Of a DNA stretch of 49,483 bases, positions 18,801 to 27,657 are shown piece after piece. Numbering within the stretch: position 1 is the first letter of the stretch; each line of letters begins with the position of its first letter. The position numbers and the translations under genes are program-made. The notes below the pieces were generated by a model. It was not told the DNA's origin. It saw nothing but the letters and a program-made list of their open reading frames with translations, and did no database searches. Origin of the DNA: an uncultured Spirochaetia bacterium (lineage in GTDB: Bacteria > Spirochaetota > Spirochaetia > Sphaerochaetales > Sphaerochaetaceae); NCBI GenBank assembly GCA_905236385.1, contig CAJOOY010000042.1:1-49483 (forward strand), given 5' to 3'.

Positions 18801-20093
18801 ACCCTCGGTCCAGTTGAAAAGCTTACAGTCAGAGCCGGTTCCGAACTTCTTGTTGAGCCGGGCACACTTGTTCCTGCAAGCACACCAATAATTGAGTTTG
18901 ATCCGTTCAGTGAGCCGATTATCAGTGAAAGTGACGGTATCATTACCTTCCAGGACCTTGTTCTCGGAACAACCCTTATCAAGGAAGTCAACGAAGAGAC
19001 CGGTACAATTGGTTTCAGAGTTACTGACCATGTCATTGAATCAGCTGAGCCAGCCCTCCAGATCATTGGAGAAGACGGAACTGTATGTAAGGACGACAAG
19101 GGCAAGGAGATAACATACCTGCTCCCAGGTTCATCATACATCCTCGTCCAGGACGGCGAGATGGTTAAGAAAGGCCATGTAATTGCCAAGCTGCTCACAG
19201 CAGGTGCCAAGACTAAGGATATTACCGGTGGTCTTCCACGTGTCGGAGAGCTCTTCGAGGCTCGTAAGCCTAAGAATATGGCTGTTCTTGCTGCTGCTTC
19301 CGGTGAGGTTGAGTTTGGTAAGATTACAAAGGGTAAGAGAGAGATAGATGTCATTGATGACTTCGGCAGAGTCCACAAGCACATGATTCTTCTCGGCAAG
19401 CACATTCTTGTCAGAGACGGAGACCATGTTGAAGCTGGAGAGAGACTCTGCGATGGAAACATCAATCCACATGACATTCTCGCTATCAGCGGTGAAAACA
19501 AACTTCAGGAGTTCCTGCTTAATGAAGTTCAGGAAGTCTACAGACTGCAGGGTGTAGATATAAATGACAAGCACCTTGGAATAGTCGTAAGACAGATGCT
19601 CAGAAAGGTAGAAATTACCAGAGTAGGAGATACCCGCTTCATTCAGGGCCAGAAGGTTGATAAGTTCCGCTTCCACGAAGAGAACAACAGAGTCATGGCA
19701 GAAGGTGGTCAGGCGGCAGTTGCACGTCCGTGTCTGCTCGGTATTACCCATGCTTCTCTTTCAATTGACTCCTTTGTCAGTGCTGCTTCCTTCCAGGAGA
19801 CAACAAGGGTCCTTACAACTGCAGCTATTGCAGGAAGCAAGGACGAGCTTCGTGGCCTGAAAGAAAACGTAATAATCGGTCACCTAATTCCTGCTGGTAC
19901 AGGTATGAAGTGCTACCGCGATGTAAAGCTTGCTGATGAATCTCTGCTCAAGGTAAAGCTTGCTGAAGAGAAGATTTCAGCAAATGCAGCAGCCGAAGAG
20001 TTCAAGGAAGATTTTGAGAAGATAGCTGATATGAGTTATGAGGATGACTCTTTTGATGATTCTTCAGATCTATCTATGGACGAAGACGAGTGA
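15828..20093 (+). CDS. rpoC: DNA-directed RNA polymerase subunit beta-prime
   Basis: Catalytic subunit of 1421 residues, full length. The N-terminal zinc site reads CYCGK and CDRCG. The active-site NADFDGDQM motif binds magnesium with three aspartates. The bridge-helix and trigger-loop region is around [18 protein letters not shown] and RTFHVGG. The second zinc site has [13 protein letters not shown]. An acidic tail of about 25 residues ([17 protein letters not shown]) closes the protein. A strong AGGAGG ribosome-binding site precedes the ATG. Confidence 0.98.
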
Positions 20094-20132
20094 GATTGTT
20101 ATAATCCCACTCGCCTGTAAAATTTAAAAAAG

Positions 20133-20186
20133 CCGGCGTATGCCGGATAATATTGCGTATGCAGCAGATTTACACCTTAGAGTGTA
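20133..20186 (+). promoter_or_regulatory. Two small hairpins in the rpoC-rpsL leader
   Basis: CCGGC/GCCGG (20133-20146, loop GTAT) and TACAC/GTGTA (20171-20186) are perfect 5-bp stems in the 123-bp rpoC-rpsL gap. GCGTATGC recurs between them. They may act as a leaky attenuator or protein site, and neither has a convincing T-tract. Confidence 0.3.
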
Positions 20187-20216
20187 GCGTTGTATACGGT
20201 GAGGAGAGCATTTAAG

Positions 20217-20591
20217 ATGCCTACAATCAATCAGTTGATCCGCAAGGGTCGTTCAACGCCGAAAGACAAGACTAAGTCTCCTGCTCTTGAAGGCTGCCCG
20301 CAGAAGCGTGGTGTTTGTACAAAGGTCATGACAGTGACCCCGAAGAAGCCTAACTCAGCTCTGAGAAAGGTTGCTCGTGTCCGTCTCTCAAACGGAATTG
20401 AAGTTACAGCCTATATCCCTGGTATTGGCCATAACCTTCAGGAACACTCAGTTGTTCTCATCCGTGGCGGAAGAGTTAAGGACCTTCCTGGTGTCCGTTA
20501 CCATATTGTTCGTGGTACAAAAGATACACAGGGTGTTGACGGAAGAAAGAGAAGCCGCTCCAAGTACGGTACAAAGAAGCCGAAGGCTTGA
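20217..20591 (+). CDS. rpsL: 30S ribosomal protein S12
   Basis: Decoding-centre protein of the small subunit, 124 residues. It contains [11 protein letters not shown] at the start, [28 protein letters not shown] and [16 protein letters not shown]. The lysines matching E. coli Lys42/43 and Lys87/88 are present, the streptomycin-sensitive form. The ATG at 20217 matches the family start and follows GAGGAG; an upstream start at 20190 adds an unsupported extension. It lies 15 bp before rpsG. Confidence 0.97.
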
Positions 20592-20606
20592 TGAGGAGGA
20601 TTTCAA

Positions 20607-21077
20607 ATGTCTAGAAGAACAAACGCACCTGTTAGGGAAATCCTTCCTGATTCGGTTTACAACAGTGTTACAGTCGAGAAGTTCATTAACCGCATGATGC
20701 TCGATGGTAAGAAGTCAGTAAGCACACGTATTCTGTACGATGCTATGGAGATTATGGGCAGCAAGTCTGGAGAAGCTCCTCTTGATGTTTTCACAAAGGC
20801 TCTTGATAACGTGAAGCCTGTTGTTGAAGTTAAGTCAAAGAGAGTCGGTGGTGCAACATACCAGGTTCCTACCGAGATCCGTGAACCGAGACGTGAAGCT
20901 CTTGCAATGCGCTGGATTATTGCTGCAGCACGTGGTCGTGCCGGCAAGTCCATGAGTGAGAAGCTTGCAGCCGAGATGCTGGATGCTTATGCAAATACCG
21001 GTACAGCTTTCAAGAAGAAGGAAGACATGCACCGCATGGCAGAAGCAAACAAGGCTTTCAGCCACATTCGCTTCTGA
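20607..21077 (+). CDS. rpsG: 30S ribosomal protein S7
   Basis: Primary 16S-binding protein that nucleates the 30S head, 156 residues, standard length. It opens with [15 protein letters not shown] and contains [13 protein letters not shown] and [24 protein letters not shown]. The end [17 protein letters not shown] is typical. GAGGAGG precedes the ATG. In many bacteria fusA and tuf follow; here a strong terminator follows instead. Confidence 0.97.
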
Positions 21078-21086
21078 TTACCAAAG

Positions 21087-21110
21087 CCTGTCCGAGAGGA
21101 CAGGTTTTTT
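21087..21110 (+). terminator. Strong intrinsic terminator after rpsG
   Basis: CCTGTCC (21087-21093) and GGACAGG (21098-21104) form a perfect 7-bp stem with GAGA loop, followed by six T's (21105-21110). It ends the secE-to-rpsG cluster. Confidence 0.9.
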
Positions 21111-21111
21111 C

Positions 21112-21139
21112 TTGCCTGCTTATCATTAACAGATATAAT
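21112..21139 (+). promoter_or_regulatory. Rubredoxin promoter
   Basis: A -35-like TTGCCT (21112-21117), 16-base spacer and perfect -10 TATAAT (21134-21139) lie directly after the rpsG terminator. The start site would be near 21146, giving a leader of about 25 bases with GAAGGAG. Confidence 0.65.
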
Positions 21140-21171
21140 TAAAGCAGTTCTTATTCGAAGGAGAAAAAACA

Positions 21172-21330
21172 ATGGATAAGTATGTATGTGATGTTTGTGG
21201 ATATGTCTACGATCCTGAAGTAGGCGATCCTGATGGCGGAATTGCTCCTGGAACACCATTTGAGCAGATTCCAGATGATTGGGTATGCCCAGTTTGTGGA
21301 GTTGGAAAGGATTCTTTCTCAAAGCAGTAA
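21172..21330 (+). CDS. Rubredoxin
   Basis: Small iron-sulfur electron carrier of 52 residues, cytoplasmic. Two CxxCG knuckles ([10 protein letters not shown] near residues 6-15, and [11 protein letters not shown] near 39-49) bind one iron through four cysteines. The central [22 protein letters not shown] is the family signature. It commonly feeds rubrerythrin, superoxide reductase or flavodiiron proteins in anaerobes, fitting an anaerobic or microaerophilic host. It has its own promoter, a GAAGGAG ribosome-binding site and a terminator, so it is a single-gene unit inserted in the translation cluster. Confidence 0.95.
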
Positions 21331-21350
21331 TCAGATACTGTTTTTCAAAG

Positions 21351-21395
21351 AGGCTGTAACAAAACCGGTTTCCCGGCAGATGTTGCAGCCTTTTT
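21351..21395 (+). terminator. Terminator of rubredoxin
   Basis: AGGCTGTAAC (21351-21360) pairs with GTTGCAGCCT (21382-21391), 10 bp with one G-U, around an inner CCGG/CCGG stem. A TTTTT run (21391-21395) follows. Confidence 0.85.
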
Positions 21396-21425
21396 CTTAT
21401 ACAATCTTATGAATTCAAGGCATTA

Positions 21426-22646
21426 TTGAATCCAAATGAGCCATTAAAATGGGCAAAAACAATTGTTGCTTATGCAAATGGTATAGGTGGGTATATCTTT
21501 GTTGGAGTATCGGATAATCGGGATGCGTTTGGCCTGTCGATAGAAGAAATAGATAAGACAAAGAATCTTATTTCATTGATAAATGATCGTCATATTTTTC
21601 CTCATGCAAAACTGTCATATGGGATGAGAAGTGTTGATGATAATGCTGAAAGATTTGTTCTTGCCGTCAGAGTCTTTTCTGCTGATTCCATTGTCAGATA
21701 TAGAGAAGGAGACTTTAATGAAACGACAGATATCCTTTACTCAGAAGATAACTGGTCTGATTTTATTGATTTGTGCAAAGAATTCAGAAGCGATAAATCT
21801 GCCCCAACTGTGAAAGAGCTTCAAAATGAAGAAATAATCTCAAAAGACGGTTATGCCAAATCCGGCCTAATGATGTTCAGAGATGATTATTCGGGAGATG
21901 ATTCTCTGATCTGTTGCCGCTTGTGGCGTGGAAATGACAAAACTGGAACTGTTCTTGATAGTGAAAAAATAAAAGGTCCCTTATCAAAAGGTTTAAAACT
22001 TGCACTACTATTTATTGAACGGAATACTAAAACAGGGTGGAAAAAGACACCCGATGGCGGCAGAGAAGAAATCCGCTCTTATCCAAGAGAAGCAATCCGC
22101 GAAGCTATGGTAAACGCAATTGCTCATCGAGACTATTCAATTTACGGAACTCAGATTGATGTTGATATTTATTCTGACAGAATAGATATAGTTTCACCAG
22201 GTTCATGGCTTTTACCAAAAGATTATAATGAGTATCCTCTCGGAGCGATTCCTTCAATACGCAGGAACACAATAATTGCAGCTTGCTTTTATGTTGCGAA
22301 TCTGATGGAGCGGGGAGGAACTGGTTTTCAGACAATGATAGAAAGCTATAAAGATTCATCAGAAGAAAAGCAACCATGTGTCATGATTTATCCAGGCTTC
22401 CTCGATTTAAGGCTTTTTGATAGATTATACCAAACAGAAGAGCCCTTTGCAGAGCTGTCCGATAGTGAAAAAATATATGGGCTTTTAAAAGCAAGTCCAA
22501 GTTCTGTAAAGGAGTTACAAGCTGCAACTTCTTATAAAAGCAGAAGCCGCTTCCTTGAAGAAATAATCAATCCACTTATTAAAGAAGAAAAAATAGTCAG
22601 GGAAGGAAGGCCCAAATCTCCTACGGCTGTGTTCAGATTGAAGTAG
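21426..22646 (+). CDS. AlbA_2/Schlafen-like ATP-binding protein, 5' end probably degraded
   Basis: Putative regulator or nucleic-acid-binding protein of the AlbA_2 group, often called a divergent-AAA4 or ATP-binding transcriptional regulator. The AlbA_2 part has PLKWAKTIVAYANGIGGYIFVGV. The GHKL-like part has SYPREAIREAMVNAIAHRDYS and IYSDRIDIVSPG, and a winged-helix-like C-terminus follows. The only start in frame is a TTG at 21426 with no ribosome-binding site. The frame reads Y-E-F-K-A-L immediately before it, matching the conserved EFK opening of the domain, yet further upstream it runs into the rubredoxin terminator without a start codon. This points to loss of the first 10-20 codons. 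Function in this state is uncertain. Confidence 0.65.
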   Translation: MNPNEPLKWAKTIVAYANGIGGYIFVGVSDNRDAFGLSIEEIDKTKNLISLINDRHIFPHAKLSYGMRSVDDNAERFVLAVRVFSADSIVRYREGDFNETTDILYSEDNWSDFIDLCKEFRSDKSAPTVKELQNEEIISKDGYAKSGLMMFRDDYSGDDSLICCRLWRGNDKTGTVLDSEKIKGPLSKGLKLALLFIERNTKTGWKKTPDGGREEIRSYPREAIREAMVNAIAHRDYSIYGTQIDVDIYSDRIDIVSPGSWLLPKDYNEYPLGAIPSIRRNTIIAACFYVANLMERGGTGFQTMIESYKDSSEEKQPCVMIYPGFLDLRLFDRLYQTEEPFAELSDSEKIYGLLKASPSSVKELQAATSYKSRSRFLEEIINPLIKEEKIVREGRPKSPTAVFRLK

Positions 22647-22705
22647 TGGTACCACTGAACACACATGCTCTTTTTTCAATTTTTCGAGATGAAAAACTCA
22701 TGTGT
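22645..22705 (+). repeat. Palindrome and inverted repeat after the AlbA_2 gene
   Basis: AGTGGTACCACT (22645-22656) is a perfect 12-base palindrome overlapping the TAG stop. ACACATG (22661-22667) and CATGTGT (22699-22705) form a 7-bp inverted repeat around a T/A-rich loop with extra T/A pairing. The right arm touches the next promoter's -35 box. It could be an operator or a weak terminator. Confidence 0.4.
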
Positions 22706-22733
22706 TGACACTAAATCTGCTTTGTGTTATGGT
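22705..22733 (+). promoter_or_regulatory. Promoter upstream of the tuf leader RNA
   Basis: A perfect -35 box TTGACA (22705-22710), 17-base spacer and TATGGT (22728-22733). It matches the TTGACA-17-TATGTT layout of the promoter at 8311. Transcription would start near 22740, almost 290 bases before tuf. Confidence 0.75.
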
Positions 22734-22737
22734 TGCA

Positions 22738-22912
22738 AAGGTTTCCCAAGAACCGTGATATGCCCTAAAAGTATCAGCTTTTTGGGATTCTAGAGCCAAA
22801 CCAATCATTTTAGGGGTGATAAGGTGGTTCCAGAAAACGCAGTTTTTTATAACTTGTGCTATGTTGAGTTCCCGAGACGTTAGGTCCTCAACCTCTGGAT
22901 TCCTTCTTTTTT
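22738..22912 (+). ncRNA. Unidentified structured RNA (leader or small RNA) before tuf
   Basis: A closing stem (AAGG/CCTT plus TCC/GGA around a TT/TT loop: 22738-22746 with 22897-22905) encloses two hairpins. Hairpin A has GAACC/GGTTC (22750-22754, 22826-22830), CCCTAAAA/TTTTAGGG (22763-22770, 22808-22815) and an apical TTTGG/CCAAA. Hairpin B has GTTGAG/CTCAAC (22863-22868, 22887-22892) with a further CC/GG pair. Six T's (22907-22912) follow the closing stem. The 8-bp and 6-bp stems are perfect. I could not match it to tmRNA, RNase P, SRP, 6S RNA or a T-box. It may be a stand-alone RNA ending at the T-tract or a tuf leader with an attenuator. Confidence 0.5.
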
Positions 22913-22955
22913 ATCAATTCTTTAATGGTCATAGTTTGTCTCGATGGTAGTAGGT

Positions 22956-23022
22956 AAAGGCTTTGTGCCTTTAGCGCACAATTTATTATTTTTGGATTTG
23001 TGACAAAAAGGTCACAAGGAGG
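22956..23022 (+). promoter_or_regulatory. tuf-proximal hairpins and ribosome-binding site
   Basis: AAAGGC/GCCTTT (22956-22972) forms a 6-bp stem. TTGTGAC/GTCACAA (22998-23017) forms a perfect 7-bp stem around AAAAAG and directly abuts the GGAGG (23018-23022) of tuf. A -10-like TATTAT lies at 22984-22989 but lacks a good -35. Confidence 0.45.
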
Positions 23023-23027
23023 AAACG

Positions 23028-24218
23028 ATGGCTAAAGAGAAGTTTGAGAGAACCAAGCCACACGTAAACGTTGGTACTATCGGTCACGTAGACCATGGTA
23101 AGACAACTCTGACAGCTGCAATCACTATGTATTGCGCAAAGAAGTTTGGTGACAAACTCCTTAATTATGATGAGATTGATAACGCTCCGGAAGAGAAGGA
23201 GAGAGGTATCACCATCAACACAAGACACGTTGAGTATCAGTCTGATGCAAGACACTACGCTCACGTTGACTGCCCGGGCCACGCAGACTACATCAAGAAC
23301 ATGATTACAGGTGCTGCACAGATGGACGGAGCTGTTCTCGTTGTTGCAGCTTCTGATGGAGTTATGGCACAGACAAGAGAGCACATCCTGCTCGCCAGAC
23401 AGGTTGGAGTACCTACAATCATTGTATTCCTGAACAAGTGTGATCAGGTTGATGATCCTGAGCTTATTGACCTTGTTGAAGAAGAAGTAAGAGAAGTTCT
23501 TACAAGCAATGGATTTGATGGAGAGAACTGCCCAGTTATCAGAGGTTCTGCTTACCTTGCTATGACAGCTGGTGACAACCCAGAGAACACAGCTTGTATT
23601 GAAGAGCTGCTCAAGGCTATGGATGATTACATTCCACTTCCAGCAAGAGCTACAGATCTTCCGTTCCTTATGCCGATTGAGGATATCTTCTCAATCTCCG
23701 GTCGTGGAACTGTTGTTACAGGTAGAGTTGAAAGAGGTGTTGTACACGTTAACGATCCTGTACAGATTGTTGGTATCAAGGAAACAAGAGACACAGTCGT
23801 AACTGGTGTTGAAATGTTCAACAAGCTCCTGGACGAAGGTCAGGCTGGTGATAACATTGGTGCTCTTCTCCGTGGTGTTGACAAGAAGGAAGTTGTCAGA
23901 GGACAGGTTCTTGCAAAGCCAAAATCAATCACACCGCACACAAAGTTTATTGGACAGGTTTACGTTCTTACAAAGGAAGAGGGTGGTCGTCACTCAGCAT
24001 TTGTAGGCGGTTACAGACCTCAGTTCTATTTCAGAACAACAGATATTACAGGAACAGTTTCTCTTCCTGAAGGTGTCTCCATGGTTATGCCTGGTGACCA
24101 CACAAGTATCATTGTTGAGCTGATTCACCCGGTTGCTATGGACAAGGGACTTCGTTTTGCTATCCGTGAAGGTGGTAGAACAGTTGCTTCCGGTCAGGTT
24201 ACTGAGATTACAGAGTAA
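23028..24218 (+). CDS. tuf: Elongation factor Tu
   Basis: GTPase delivering aminoacyl-tRNA to the ribosome, 396 residues, full length. G1 is GHVDHGKT at residues 19-26. The switch region has [17 protein letters not shown]3 is DCPGHADY, and G4 is NKCD. Domain II begins near 210 with [16 protein letters not shown]. The C-terminal domain III ends in [25 protein letters not shown] site precedes the ATG. No fusA is adjacent, unlike the classic str operon. It heads the S10 cluster. Confidence 0.98.
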
Positions 24219-24234
24219 TTTTTAAATCGAATGT

Positions 24235-24271
24235 CCAGTCCGTCTAAGACGGCGGGCTGGGCCTGTTTTTT
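24235..24271 (+). terminator. Attenuator-like hairpin between tuf and rpsJ
   Basis: CCAGT/GCTGG outside and CCGTC/GACGG inside (24235-24260) make a 10-bp stem with a 3-base bulge. Six T's (24266-24271) follow and run directly into the GGAGG of rpsJ. It could terminate part of the tuf transcripts or mask the rpsJ start region. Confidence 0.6.
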
Positions 24272-24280
24272 GGAGGAAAA

Positions 24281-24589
24281 ATGGCTAACGAAAGAATTCG
24301 CGTTAGACTGAGAGGATTTGATGTTGAGCTCGTAGAACAGAGCGCAATGTCTATTGTTGACACAGTAGTTAAGGCCGGTGCAAAGGTTTCCGGACCTGTT
24401 CCTCTCCCAACACGTATCAATAAGGTTACAGTTCTTAAGTCACCGTTCGTAAACAAGAAGTCACGCGAGCAGTTCGAGATGAGAACTCACAAAAGATTAA
24501 TTGATATTCTCAATCCTACAGACAAGGTTATGGAAGCACTTATGAAACTTGAGCTTCCTGCCGGTGTTGATGTAGAGATCAAGCAGTAA
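24281..24589 (+). CDS. rpsJ: 30S ribosomal protein S10
   Basis: Head protein of the small subunit that also serves as NusE in antitermination; 102 residues. [19 protein letters not shown] at the start and [15 protein letters not shown] in the middle are diagnostic. The loop with [16 protein letters not shown] follows, as in all S10. It is the first gene of the S10 cluster, 11 bp before rplC, with GGAGG upstream. Confidence 0.97.
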
Positions 24590-24600
24590 TGAGGTAAGAG

Positions 24601-25218
24601 ATGTTAGGGCTTATCGGAAAGAAAGTTGGCATGACTCAGGTCTTCGACGAAAGCGGAAGACTGACTCCTGTCACTGTCATCAAAGTAGAAGGTAACGTTG
24701 TTGTTGCTCAGAGAACCGAAGAGAAGAACGGTTACAACGCCGCTGTTCTCGGTGCAGGGGATCTGAAGGCAGCAAATGCAACAAAACCATATGCAGGACA
24801 GTTTAAAGACGGCAACCCCAAAAAGACCCTCGTTGAGTTCCGTGATTATGAAAAGGAAGTCAATGTTGGAGATGTAGTTGGAGTTGATCTCTTTAAGGAT
24901 ATTACTTTTGTAGATGTCACAGGCACTTCAAAAGGTAAGGGCTATCAGGGCGGTATGAAGCGCCATGGTTTCGGTGGTGGTAGAGCTACTCACGGTTCAA
25001 AGTTCCACAGAGACCTCGGTGGTACAGCAATGTCATCAACACCGTCAAGAACTTTCAAGGGAAAGAAGATGGCCGGTCACATGGGTAATGAGAGAGTTAC
25101 AGTACAGAACCTCAGAGTTGTCCGTGTTGATGAGAATCTGCAGGTTCTCATGGTAAGAGGAGCTATCCCCGGACCATCACAGAGCACTGTAGTTGTTAAA
25201 AAGGCAGTTAAGAAATAA
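24601..25218 (+). CDS. rplC: 50S ribosomal protein L3
   Basis: Early-assembly protein near the peptidyl-transferase centre, 205 residues. It begins LGLIGKKVGMTQVFDESG and carries the long extension with GGMKRHGFGGGRATHGS and FKGKKMAGHMGNERVTVQNL, which reaches the catalytic core. Spacing to rplD is 11 bp. The extension region resembles other zinc-free bacterial L3 proteins and nothing unusual was seen. Confidence 0.97.
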   Translation: MLGLIGKKVGMTQVFDESGRLTPVTVIKVEGNVVVAQRTEEKNGYNAAVLGAGDLKAANATKPYAGQFKDGNPKKTLVEFRDYEKEVNVGDVVGVDLFKDITFVDVTGTSKGKGYQGGMKRHGFGGGRATHGSKFHRDLGGTAMSSTPSRTFKGKKMAGHMGNERVTVQNLRVVRVDENLQVLMVRGAIPGPSQSTVVVKKAVKK

Positions 25219-26188: not shown

Positions 26189-27013
26189 ATGGCATTGAAA
26201 GCATATAAACCAAATACACCGGGCCTGAGACAGAGAACTGTTCTTGTCAGAAGTGAGATTACAGCTCAGAAACCTGAGAGATCTCTTACAACAAATCTGC
26301 ACAAGACAGCTGGCCGCGACAGCTTCGGACGCATCAGCGTCAGACGCAGAGGTGGCGGACATAAGCGTGCTTACAGAATCATTGATTTTAAGCGTGACAA
26401 GTTCGGTGTTCCGGGAACAGTTAAGACAATTGAATACGACCCCAACCGCAGCGCAAATATTGCACTCGTGTTCTACGCAGACGGTGAGAAGCGTTATATT
26501 CTTGCTCCTAAGGGACTTACAGTTGGTTCCGTTGTTGTCAGCGGTCCTTCAGCTCCTCTTAAGACAGGTTGTGCACTTCCACTTAAGAACATTCCCCTCG
26601 GTCTGACAGTACACAATGTTGAACTTACGCTCGGACGCGGCGGACAGCTTGTCCGTTCAGCAGGTCTCGGAGCCACAATCATTGCCAAGGAAGGAGACTA
26701 TGTTACTCTTCGCCTTCCTTCAGGTGAAATGAGAATGGTTTTCGGTGAGTGCTATGCATCAATCGGTTCACTGGGAAATGAAGACCACATGAACGTATCT
26801 CTCGGAAAGGCTGGTGCAAGCCGCCACCTTGGAAGAAGACCAAAGGTTCGTGGTGTTGTTATGAACCCGGTAGACCATCCGCATGGTGGTGGTGAAGGCA
26901 AGACAGCAGCAGGACGTCATCCGGTTACTCCATGGGGTAAGCCGACTAAGGGTGCCAAGACCCGCTCAAATAAGAAGCCTTCCAATAACTTCATTGTTAA
27001 GAAGCGCAAGTAG
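26189..27013 (+). CDS. rplB: 50S ribosomal protein L2
   Basis: Highly conserved protein required for subunit joining and peptidyl-transferase activity, 274 residues. [15 protein letters not shown] opens the protein. The RNA-binding core has [17 protein letters not shown], and the catalytically linked [14 protein letters not shown] motif lies near residue 230. The tail is basic ([17 protein letters not shown]). It is 9 bp before rpsS. Confidence 0.98.
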
Positions 27014-27022
27014 GAGTAGAAC

Positions 27023-27295
27023 GTGGCTAGATCAATTAAAAAAGGACCGTACGTTGAAGAGAGACTTCTCAAGAGAGTTGAAGCTTCAAAGAGTGCAGGT
27101 CAGCTGGATATGATAAAGACTTACTCACGCAGTTCCACAATTATCCCTGATATGGTAGGTTTCACAATCTCCGTTTATAACGGAAAGACTTGGATTCCTG
27201 TCTACGTAACAGAGAACCTGGTTGGACATAAACTGGGCGAGTTCGCACCTACAAGAACTTTCCGTGGACATTCCGGTTCTGACAAGAAGGCTTGA
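27023..27295 (+). CDS. rpsS: 30S ribosomal protein S19
   Basis: Head protein that contacts S13 and the A-site tRNA, 90 residues. [18 protein letters not shown] and [37 protein letters not shown] are diagnostic. The initiation codon is GTG at 27023, behind TAGGAG; it is one of the few non-ATG starts in the cluster. The stop is followed directly by the GAGGAGG of rplV. Confidence 0.96.
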
Positions 27296-27306
27296 GGAGG
27301 AAGATG

Positions 27307-27657
27307 ATGGCAAAGACATACAAAGCAGTTGCAAAGTATCTTATGGTCTCTCCTTCTAAGGTTCGTCCTGTAGCAAACCTTGTCAGAGGAAAGAATTATG
27401 AGGAAGCAGTCGGAATTCTGAACGCTATGCCGCAGAAGGGTTCCCGCCTGATTCTCAAGGTTCTTGAGAGTGCCGGTGCTAACGCAATGTACCAGAACAA
27501 CAAGCTGGACGAGAGCCAGCTTGAGGTTTCTGCTATCTACGTTGACGGTGGTCCGACCCTCAAGAGAGTTTGGGCAAGATCTCACGGAAAGAGAGATATC
27601 CTTCTTAAGAGAATGTCTCATATCACTGTAGAAGTCAGTGAAAGCGTGGAGGAGTAA
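27307..27657 (+). CDS. rplV: 50S ribosomal protein L22
   Basis: Exit-tunnel protein of 116 residues whose hairpin lines the constriction with L4. It has KYLMVSPSKVRPVANLVRGK at the N-terminus and VDGGPTLKRVWARSHGKRDILLKRMSHITVEV in the hairpin. Two tandem ATGs (27304 and 27307) follow GAGGAGG; the second has the better 6-base spacing. The next gene, rpsC, starts immediately after its stop. Confidence 0.95.
   Translation: MAKTYKAVAKYLMVSPSKVRPVANLVRGKNYEEAVGILNAMPQKGSRLILKVLESAGANAMYQNNKLDESQLEVSAIYVDGGPTLKRVWARSHGKRDILLKRMSHITVEVSESVEE

Follow-up and report, generated by a model that had tools for sequence, protein, structure and literature searches.

In our view it is very probable, taking both parts of the statement together, that the AlbA_2 open reading frame between the rubredoxin gene and tuf in the analysed DNA of an uncultured Spirochaetia bacterium (contig CAJOOY010000042.1; the whole stretch of 49,483 nucleotides is referred to below as the window) is a twice-deleted, promoterless remnant of an acquired gene, and that intact genes of the same kind are autorepressed through an array of short repeats at their promoters. 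A dead remnant is the simplest reading of the window copy, the product of which is most likely not made.

The ancestral gene would have encoded a protein of three domains, with Schlafen/AlbA_2 at the N-terminus, a GHKL-type ATPase-like domain (HATPase_c_4) in the middle and a winged helix at the C-terminus. One deletion took 16 codons together with the start codon and everything needed to express the gene, namely its ribosome-binding site and promoter, and cost the protein one motif glutamate; a second, of 93 bp between 8-bp repeats, took core strands and a helix of the AlbA_2 domain. In the intact protein the winged helix would bind the array, with multiple copies lined up along the same DNA face, and the bound array would block the promoter embedded in it, so that an RNase-like protein represses its own gene. 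The AlbA_2 domain may then act as the effector, with the GHKL domain as its switch. The features of the window on which this account draws are listed in Table 1.

Table 1. Features of the rubredoxin–tuf interval (positions are those of the window)
Feature	Positions	Strand	Basis or remark
Rubredoxin gene	21172..21330	+	Upstream neighbour; Pfam PF00301, E 4.9e-26
Intrinsic terminator of rubredoxin, intact	21347..21395	+	Fold −29.3 kcal/mol; shuffles −13.8, s.d. 3.1
5′ truncation junction	21396..21408	+	Homologue similarity only from 21408; blastn/tblastn boundaries and alignment
Truncated AlbA_2, HATPase_c_4 and C-terminal winged-helix coding remnant, 412 codons and stop	21408..22646	+	Similarity and alignment
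TTG, sole conventional start near the N-terminus	21426..21428	+	Codon 23 of intact homologues, not their start
Scar TAATGAAA of in-frame 93-bp deletion between two direct repeats	21716..21723	+	Comparison with L029 and L040
HATPase_c_4 region, motif residues retained	22146..22367	+	HMM match; residues at family-invariant positions
Promoter-like tuf site, 3′ of the remnant	22705..22733	+	TTGACA conserved in most relatives' tuf loci

5′ truncation and the start codon

The reading frame is open from the stop codon TAA at 21357 to the stop at 22644–22646, and the earliest ATG, GTG or TTG within it is the TTG at 21426. Upstream, the frame runs into the stem of the strong rubredoxin terminator (stem-loop z of −4.9 on RNA folding), the end of which is separated from the 5′ junction by 12 bases. 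The preliminary description of this locus had remarked that the conserved YEFK of the AlbA_2 domain is encoded in frame ahead of the TTG and that the upstream frame enters the terminator with no start codon. Both remarks hold: YEFK occupies 21408–21419, the frame enters the stem-loop, and the TTG is the first conventional start.

The 5′ deletion suggested on those grounds is borne out by comparison with intact homologues. All 20 homologues with a readable N-terminus start 16 codons before YEFK (17 with ATG and three with GTG), and in one of them, L029, the intact head reads MKINELYSDILTEDTK-YEFK. The match of the window open reading frame to its homologues begins exactly at the Y of YEFK, with identities of up to 84% to sequences from Treponema MAGs; DNA similarity to the two closest copies, L029 (91%) and L040 (90%), begins at that same base. 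The window copy thus lacks 16 codons and the promoter. It is plausible that the deletion coincided with the joining of the rubredoxin and AlbA_2 genes. The lost head and promoter were not found anywhere else in the 1.4-Mb genome to which the window belongs, and a relocated head was set aside accordingly. We also rejected the idea that the terminator is a mobile repeat inserted here: its look-alikes were few in matching bases and weak, the best having 78% identity over about 52 bases, and we read it as a common type of terminator.

An unusual start, which the preliminary description had offered as the alternative, did not find support. Initiation at the TTG would remove the whole of the first strand and both motif glutamates, no promoter-like site is listed between the terminator and the open reading frame, and the further deletion inside the gene shows a copy in decay. 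The AAGG that lies 6 nt 5′ of the TTG is no evidence of a start, because it is just the F-K codons of YEFK and is identical in intact L029. With the Shine–Dalgarno-like bases so explained and the TTG falling well inside the homologous genes, a start at this codon or at an ATA was rejected as the likely reading.

We accordingly regard it as very unlikely that the copy is a shortened but functional gene, read from the TTG or from the ATA at 21399 into a nuclease-free regulator with GHKL and winged-helix domains. The frame is open, the GHKL motif residues and the C-terminus are retained, and the AAGG precedes the TTG by 6 nt; against this, the AAGG and TTG also occur together inside intact L029, the region between the terminator and the frame offers no listed promoter, and, beyond the head, a further 31 residues of the fold core are missing. 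The substitution rates that also bear on this alternative are given below.

Internal deletion

In L029 and L040 two copies of the 8-bp repeat TAATGAAA lie 93 bp apart, and the window has one. The window copy alone lacks 31 codons of the AlbA_2 core, which are kept in 16 of 16 aligned homologues, and 30 gap columns in the alignment of 17 sequences are confined to its row. Mapped onto a structural model of L029, the missing residues correspond to strands 120–122, 124–126 and 131–133 and helix 136–147; the 5′ truncation removes everything before the first strand (residues 17–20). The model was calculated from a diverse alignment and has a pLDDT of 84.8; an earlier model based on 17 close sequences was poor (pLDDT 56.5) and was replaced by it.

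Domain composition and comparison with known proteins

The Pfam family SLFN_AlbA_2 (PF04326, cut-off 25.3) matches the window protein with 48.1 bits when it is read from 21387 and with 42.3 bits when it is read from the TTG. The domain is incomplete, covering model positions 3–97 and 16–97 of 118, respectively, compared with 1–117 in L029. HATPase_c_4 is also found by Pfam. In L029 the order of domains is AlbA_2, HATPase_c_4 and winged helix, as judged from Pfam and the predicted fold, and the window copy keeps the last two parts; Fic-like_C reaches 23.1 bits in L029, under its cut-off of 27. NCBIfam gave no match, and PADLOC matches to pAgo/SIR2 entries were set aside as partial-domain matches.

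Residues Glu13, Glu18 and Lys20 are present in all of 28 diverse relatives, 17 of which had been preselected by a motif expression bearing on Glu18 and Lys20 and not on Glu13. The window residue at position 13 is a leucine, so one of the two glutamates of the ExxxxE(F/Y)K motif is absent and the copy does not have the glutamate pair of a Schlafen-type site. A profile of the 28 relatives finds PDB entry 3lmm (E 6.1e-32), 2kyy and vertebrate Schlafens and, for the C-terminal part, repressors of the winged-helix type, AdcR among them. In this profile Glu13 and Glu18 align with the motif ESxxxEFK found in SLFN8/13, SLFN11 and SLFN14. The SLFN13 variants E205A and E210A, which have the same spacing of five residues, are reported to be inactive (PMC5862951). 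In our view the window remnant most likely could not be an active nuclease of the Schlafen type.

The best whole-chain match of the L029 model is DIP2311 from Corynebacterium diphtheriae (3lmm; Z 23.7 over 351 aligned residues), which differs from the intact family in sharing only 18% identity and superposing with an r.m.s. difference of 12.9. Residues 1–115 of the model match Schlafens with Z of 9–10, and residues 395–459 match the winged helices of repressors with Z of about 8. The predicted AlbA_2 fold is common to the intact relatives and the N-terminal domains of vertebrate SLFN11/12/13/14, with two glutamates aligned; RNase activity is a prediction for the proteins described here. In the family of the window gene the third acid of the Schlafen triad varies, without strict conservation, and the window copy differs from the vertebrate proteins in lacking the first glutamate.

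An architecture composed of a Schlafen RNase, a minimal histidine kinase and a winged helix is named in a 2026 survey, which reports its linkage to BREX loci for at least 1017 taxa and cites a 2025 preprint on anti-phage activity (PMC12839542). As that survey describes the architecture, the domain order of our intact relatives is identical to it, whereas the window copy has lost its head and an internal segment. The words promoter, operator, direct repeat and autoregulat are absent from the main text of the survey. Among ten genes flanking five of our homologues we recognized no BREX genes; next to L029 there is one short DNA-methylase open reading frame, and the rest are unrelated. The flanks of the window copy are rubredoxin and tuf.

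Origin of the gene and the rpsG–tuf site

On sequence grounds the window gene was most likely acquired horizontally. Its G+C content is 0.379, compared with 0.447 for the window, and at an E value of 1e-60 no homologue was found in any of 40 related genomes, three of them from the same genus. When genome contigs were scanned, 25 distinct homologue loci came to light, mostly in MAGs of Treponema or other spirochaetes and of Lachnospiraceae. Several of these are named from rumen or gut; by title, one MAG of a horse-faeces Alphaproteobacterium and one Oligoflexales MAG are also among them. Plasmids and phages contain only distant relatives, with less than 60% identity (25–35% among the matches listed).

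In 11 relatives with both genes in one locus, the gap between rpsG and tuf is 243–771 nt; here it is 1950 nt and contains rubredoxin and the remnant. The three same-genus genomes provide no empty site for comparison: neither rpsG nor rubredoxin was matched in them at our thresholds, and in the same-genus genome in which tuf was found this gene starts a contig. We note that rubredoxin also seems to be inserted between rpsG and tuf (window 21078–23027). No rubredoxin gene occurs in up to 1.5 kb upstream of tuf in 22 loci from relatives, some of which are shorter than this.

That misassembly placed a piece of a Treponema contig among the ribosomal-protein genes of a different organism seems to us scarcely credible. 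The source is a draft genome of 92 contigs and the gene resembles those of rumen Treponema MAGs, as such an artefact would suggest, but it would require two false joins within one operon, at 21408 and near 22646; moreover, the copy carries an internal deletion of its own, of 93 bp, and its missing head is nowhere else in the assembly.

Downstream of the remnant, the long leader of tuf (window 22733–23027) contains segments that are conserved in relatives: AGAGCCAAACC...GGTGGTTCCAG, AAAGGC-TTTGT-GCCTTT and TTGTGAC...GTCACAAGGAGG. A consensus fold of ten sequences has 31 pairs, four of which are changed on both sides, and in it CCUCU pairs with the ribosome-binding site. Rfam gave no match at gathering thresholds in 19000–25000, which includes the leader, and a literature search returned no paper on it. 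The leader is a candidate translational control RNA of EF-Tu.

Decay and selection

The remaining 412 codons of the window copy contain no stop or frameshift. When about 40 neutral substitutions were simulated in a frame of this length, 18% of the runs acquired no stop; the open frame is therefore only weakly surprising under neutrality and no proof of function. The dN/dS values of the window gene are 0.087 against L029 and 0.096 against L040. These low values are what a shortened functional gene would show; recent inactivation would give similarly low ones, because most of the divergence predates it. The window branch carries 20 nonsynonymous and 22 synonymous changes versus 21 and 50 (Fisher p of 0.069; 0.21 and 0.30 with other outgroups), a nonsynonymous excess that leans towards relaxed selection and is not significant, so that some purifying selection likely acted on the gene until recently.

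Start, promoter and conserved core, the losses by which a pseudogene is recognized, are all missing from the window copy. We take it to be an ordinary decayed gene, to be annotated as a pseudogene and not as a protein started at the TTG. Four of the 25 homologue loci are also broken: L038 is frameshifted, and L039, L041 and L044 carry deletions. The number is small, and it fits a gene that would be costly to keep. In the three deleted loci (L041:2936–3030, L044:1740–1890 and L039:2950–3010) the array and the −10 box are kept and the region past the promoter is lost, the reciprocal of the window copy.

Arrays at the promoters of intact homologues

A tandem array of short units lies over the promoter in all 23 homologues with readable upstream DNA, that is, the 25 loci without L024, in which this region is masked, and L043, which starts at a contig end. 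In the 20 homologues with a readable N-terminus the array is directly upstream of the gene; 19 have units with an AATGT core and one, L037, has seven phased units of AATGAT. The AATGT-cored unit is GGCAATGT in most Treponema and often CGAAATGT in Lachnospiraceae. The array persists even in L039, L041 and L044, from which the head or most of the coding part is gone. The window has none, as GCAATGT does not occur in 21001–23030.

Successive units are separated by 10 bp in 33 cases, 11 bp in 47 and 12 bp in two, with five longer spacings. The mean of those between 10 and 12 bp is 10.62 bp (n = 82), about one turn of the helix. Counting 9 nt from where the last AATGT starts, one reaches a hexamer that agrees with TATAAT at four or more of six positions in 17 of the 19 AATGT-type loci; of the remaining two, L034 has TATTAT at 9 nt by eye and L035 matches at three of six. 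The array spans the −35 region and usually ends 9 nt before the −10 box, and in several Treponema copies a TTGGCA can be seen by eye in the penultimate unit, 18 nt 5′ of the −10 box. This placement suggests that the intact genes are most likely autorepressed. A triple-unit pattern was scanned for in eight genomes, seven with homologues and that of the window. It was found in six of the seven, only at the promoter of the gene itself, and the reversed control gave 0; it was absent from the genome of the window and from that of L020, the units of which deviate from the pattern.

Three Lachnospiraceae loci (L027, L033 and L042) have a second small cluster of units at −150 to −180, 60–100 bp upstream of the main array. 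Inverted AACATT copies lie near it, and the arrangement could allow looping.

Arrays in the wider family

Genes of the wider family (PF13749) were scored for at least three phased 7-mers. Among relatives of the genome of the window, 20 of 83 genes have them, compared with 23 of 1660 shuffles and 2–4 of 83 at control spacings; this set comprised 90 of 102 matches, seven of which could not be scored, and one locus (L163) is interrupted where its contig stops. In a second set of genomes, phased arrays counted by hand occur in 12 of 12 genes inside the subfamily and in six of 35 outside it. Here 50 of 51 matches were used (the L029 row was left out) and three could not be scored; the controls gave 12 of 800 for shuffles, which include five subfamily genes, 2–3 of 40 for control spacings, and one among 59 unrelated regions upstream of tuf, rpsG and rubredoxin. 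Over both sets, three phased units are reached by 26 of 118 scorable wider-family genes, and some of these arrays (for example L145, L194 and L199) resemble coding or chance repeats. The unit varies from gene to gene, being like AAATGTCggtt (five copies) in L169, TTGAAGT in L133 and AGTGCCGaag in L122.

Two paralogues are present in the genome of the window. L133 (C44, near 5540) is distant, with 30% identity, and is intact in frame; its TTGAAGT units recur at 11–12 bp immediately 5′ of the ATG. Upstream of L004 (C22, near 26300–27400) there are direct pairs and inverted copies of TTATCGCCCAA, spaced 12 bp apart. We found no statement on phased arrays at such genes in the open-access literature searched, preprints lying outside the search.

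The arrays of the intact relatives might instead bind a host nucleoid protein, or be neutral hitch-hiking repeats, and not serve as an operator for the encoded protein. We consider this unlikely, while giving it real weight: the operator reading rests on position and conservation, and no more than the 26 of 118 scorable wider-family genes noted above reach three phased units. Counting the other way, the array accompanies the gene in Treponema, in Lachnospiraceae and in further lineages, it is locked to the −10 box and absent elsewhere in the genomes scanned, and its unit changes with the protein lineage, being of the AATGAT type in L037 and of other types in far paralogues.

Implications

Autorepression of the intact genes through their arrays leads to a broader proposal, to which we give as much credence as doubt. 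Genes of the Schlafen-AlbA_2/GHKL/winged-helix type would carry private, helically phased tandem operators across their promoters, each lineage reading its own unit, on which the protein probably assembles cooperatively along one face of the DNA; a dangerous nuclease would so be silenced for as long as this assembly stays undisturbed. The broken copies would then represent two routes of escape: the window copy lost operator and head, and in L039, L041 and L044 the head went and the operator stayed. Such phased arrays, if confirmed, would provide a test of how bacterial Schlafen-type proteins stay silent and are triggered, and would serve as a DNA signature for finding such proteins and pairing them with their operators.
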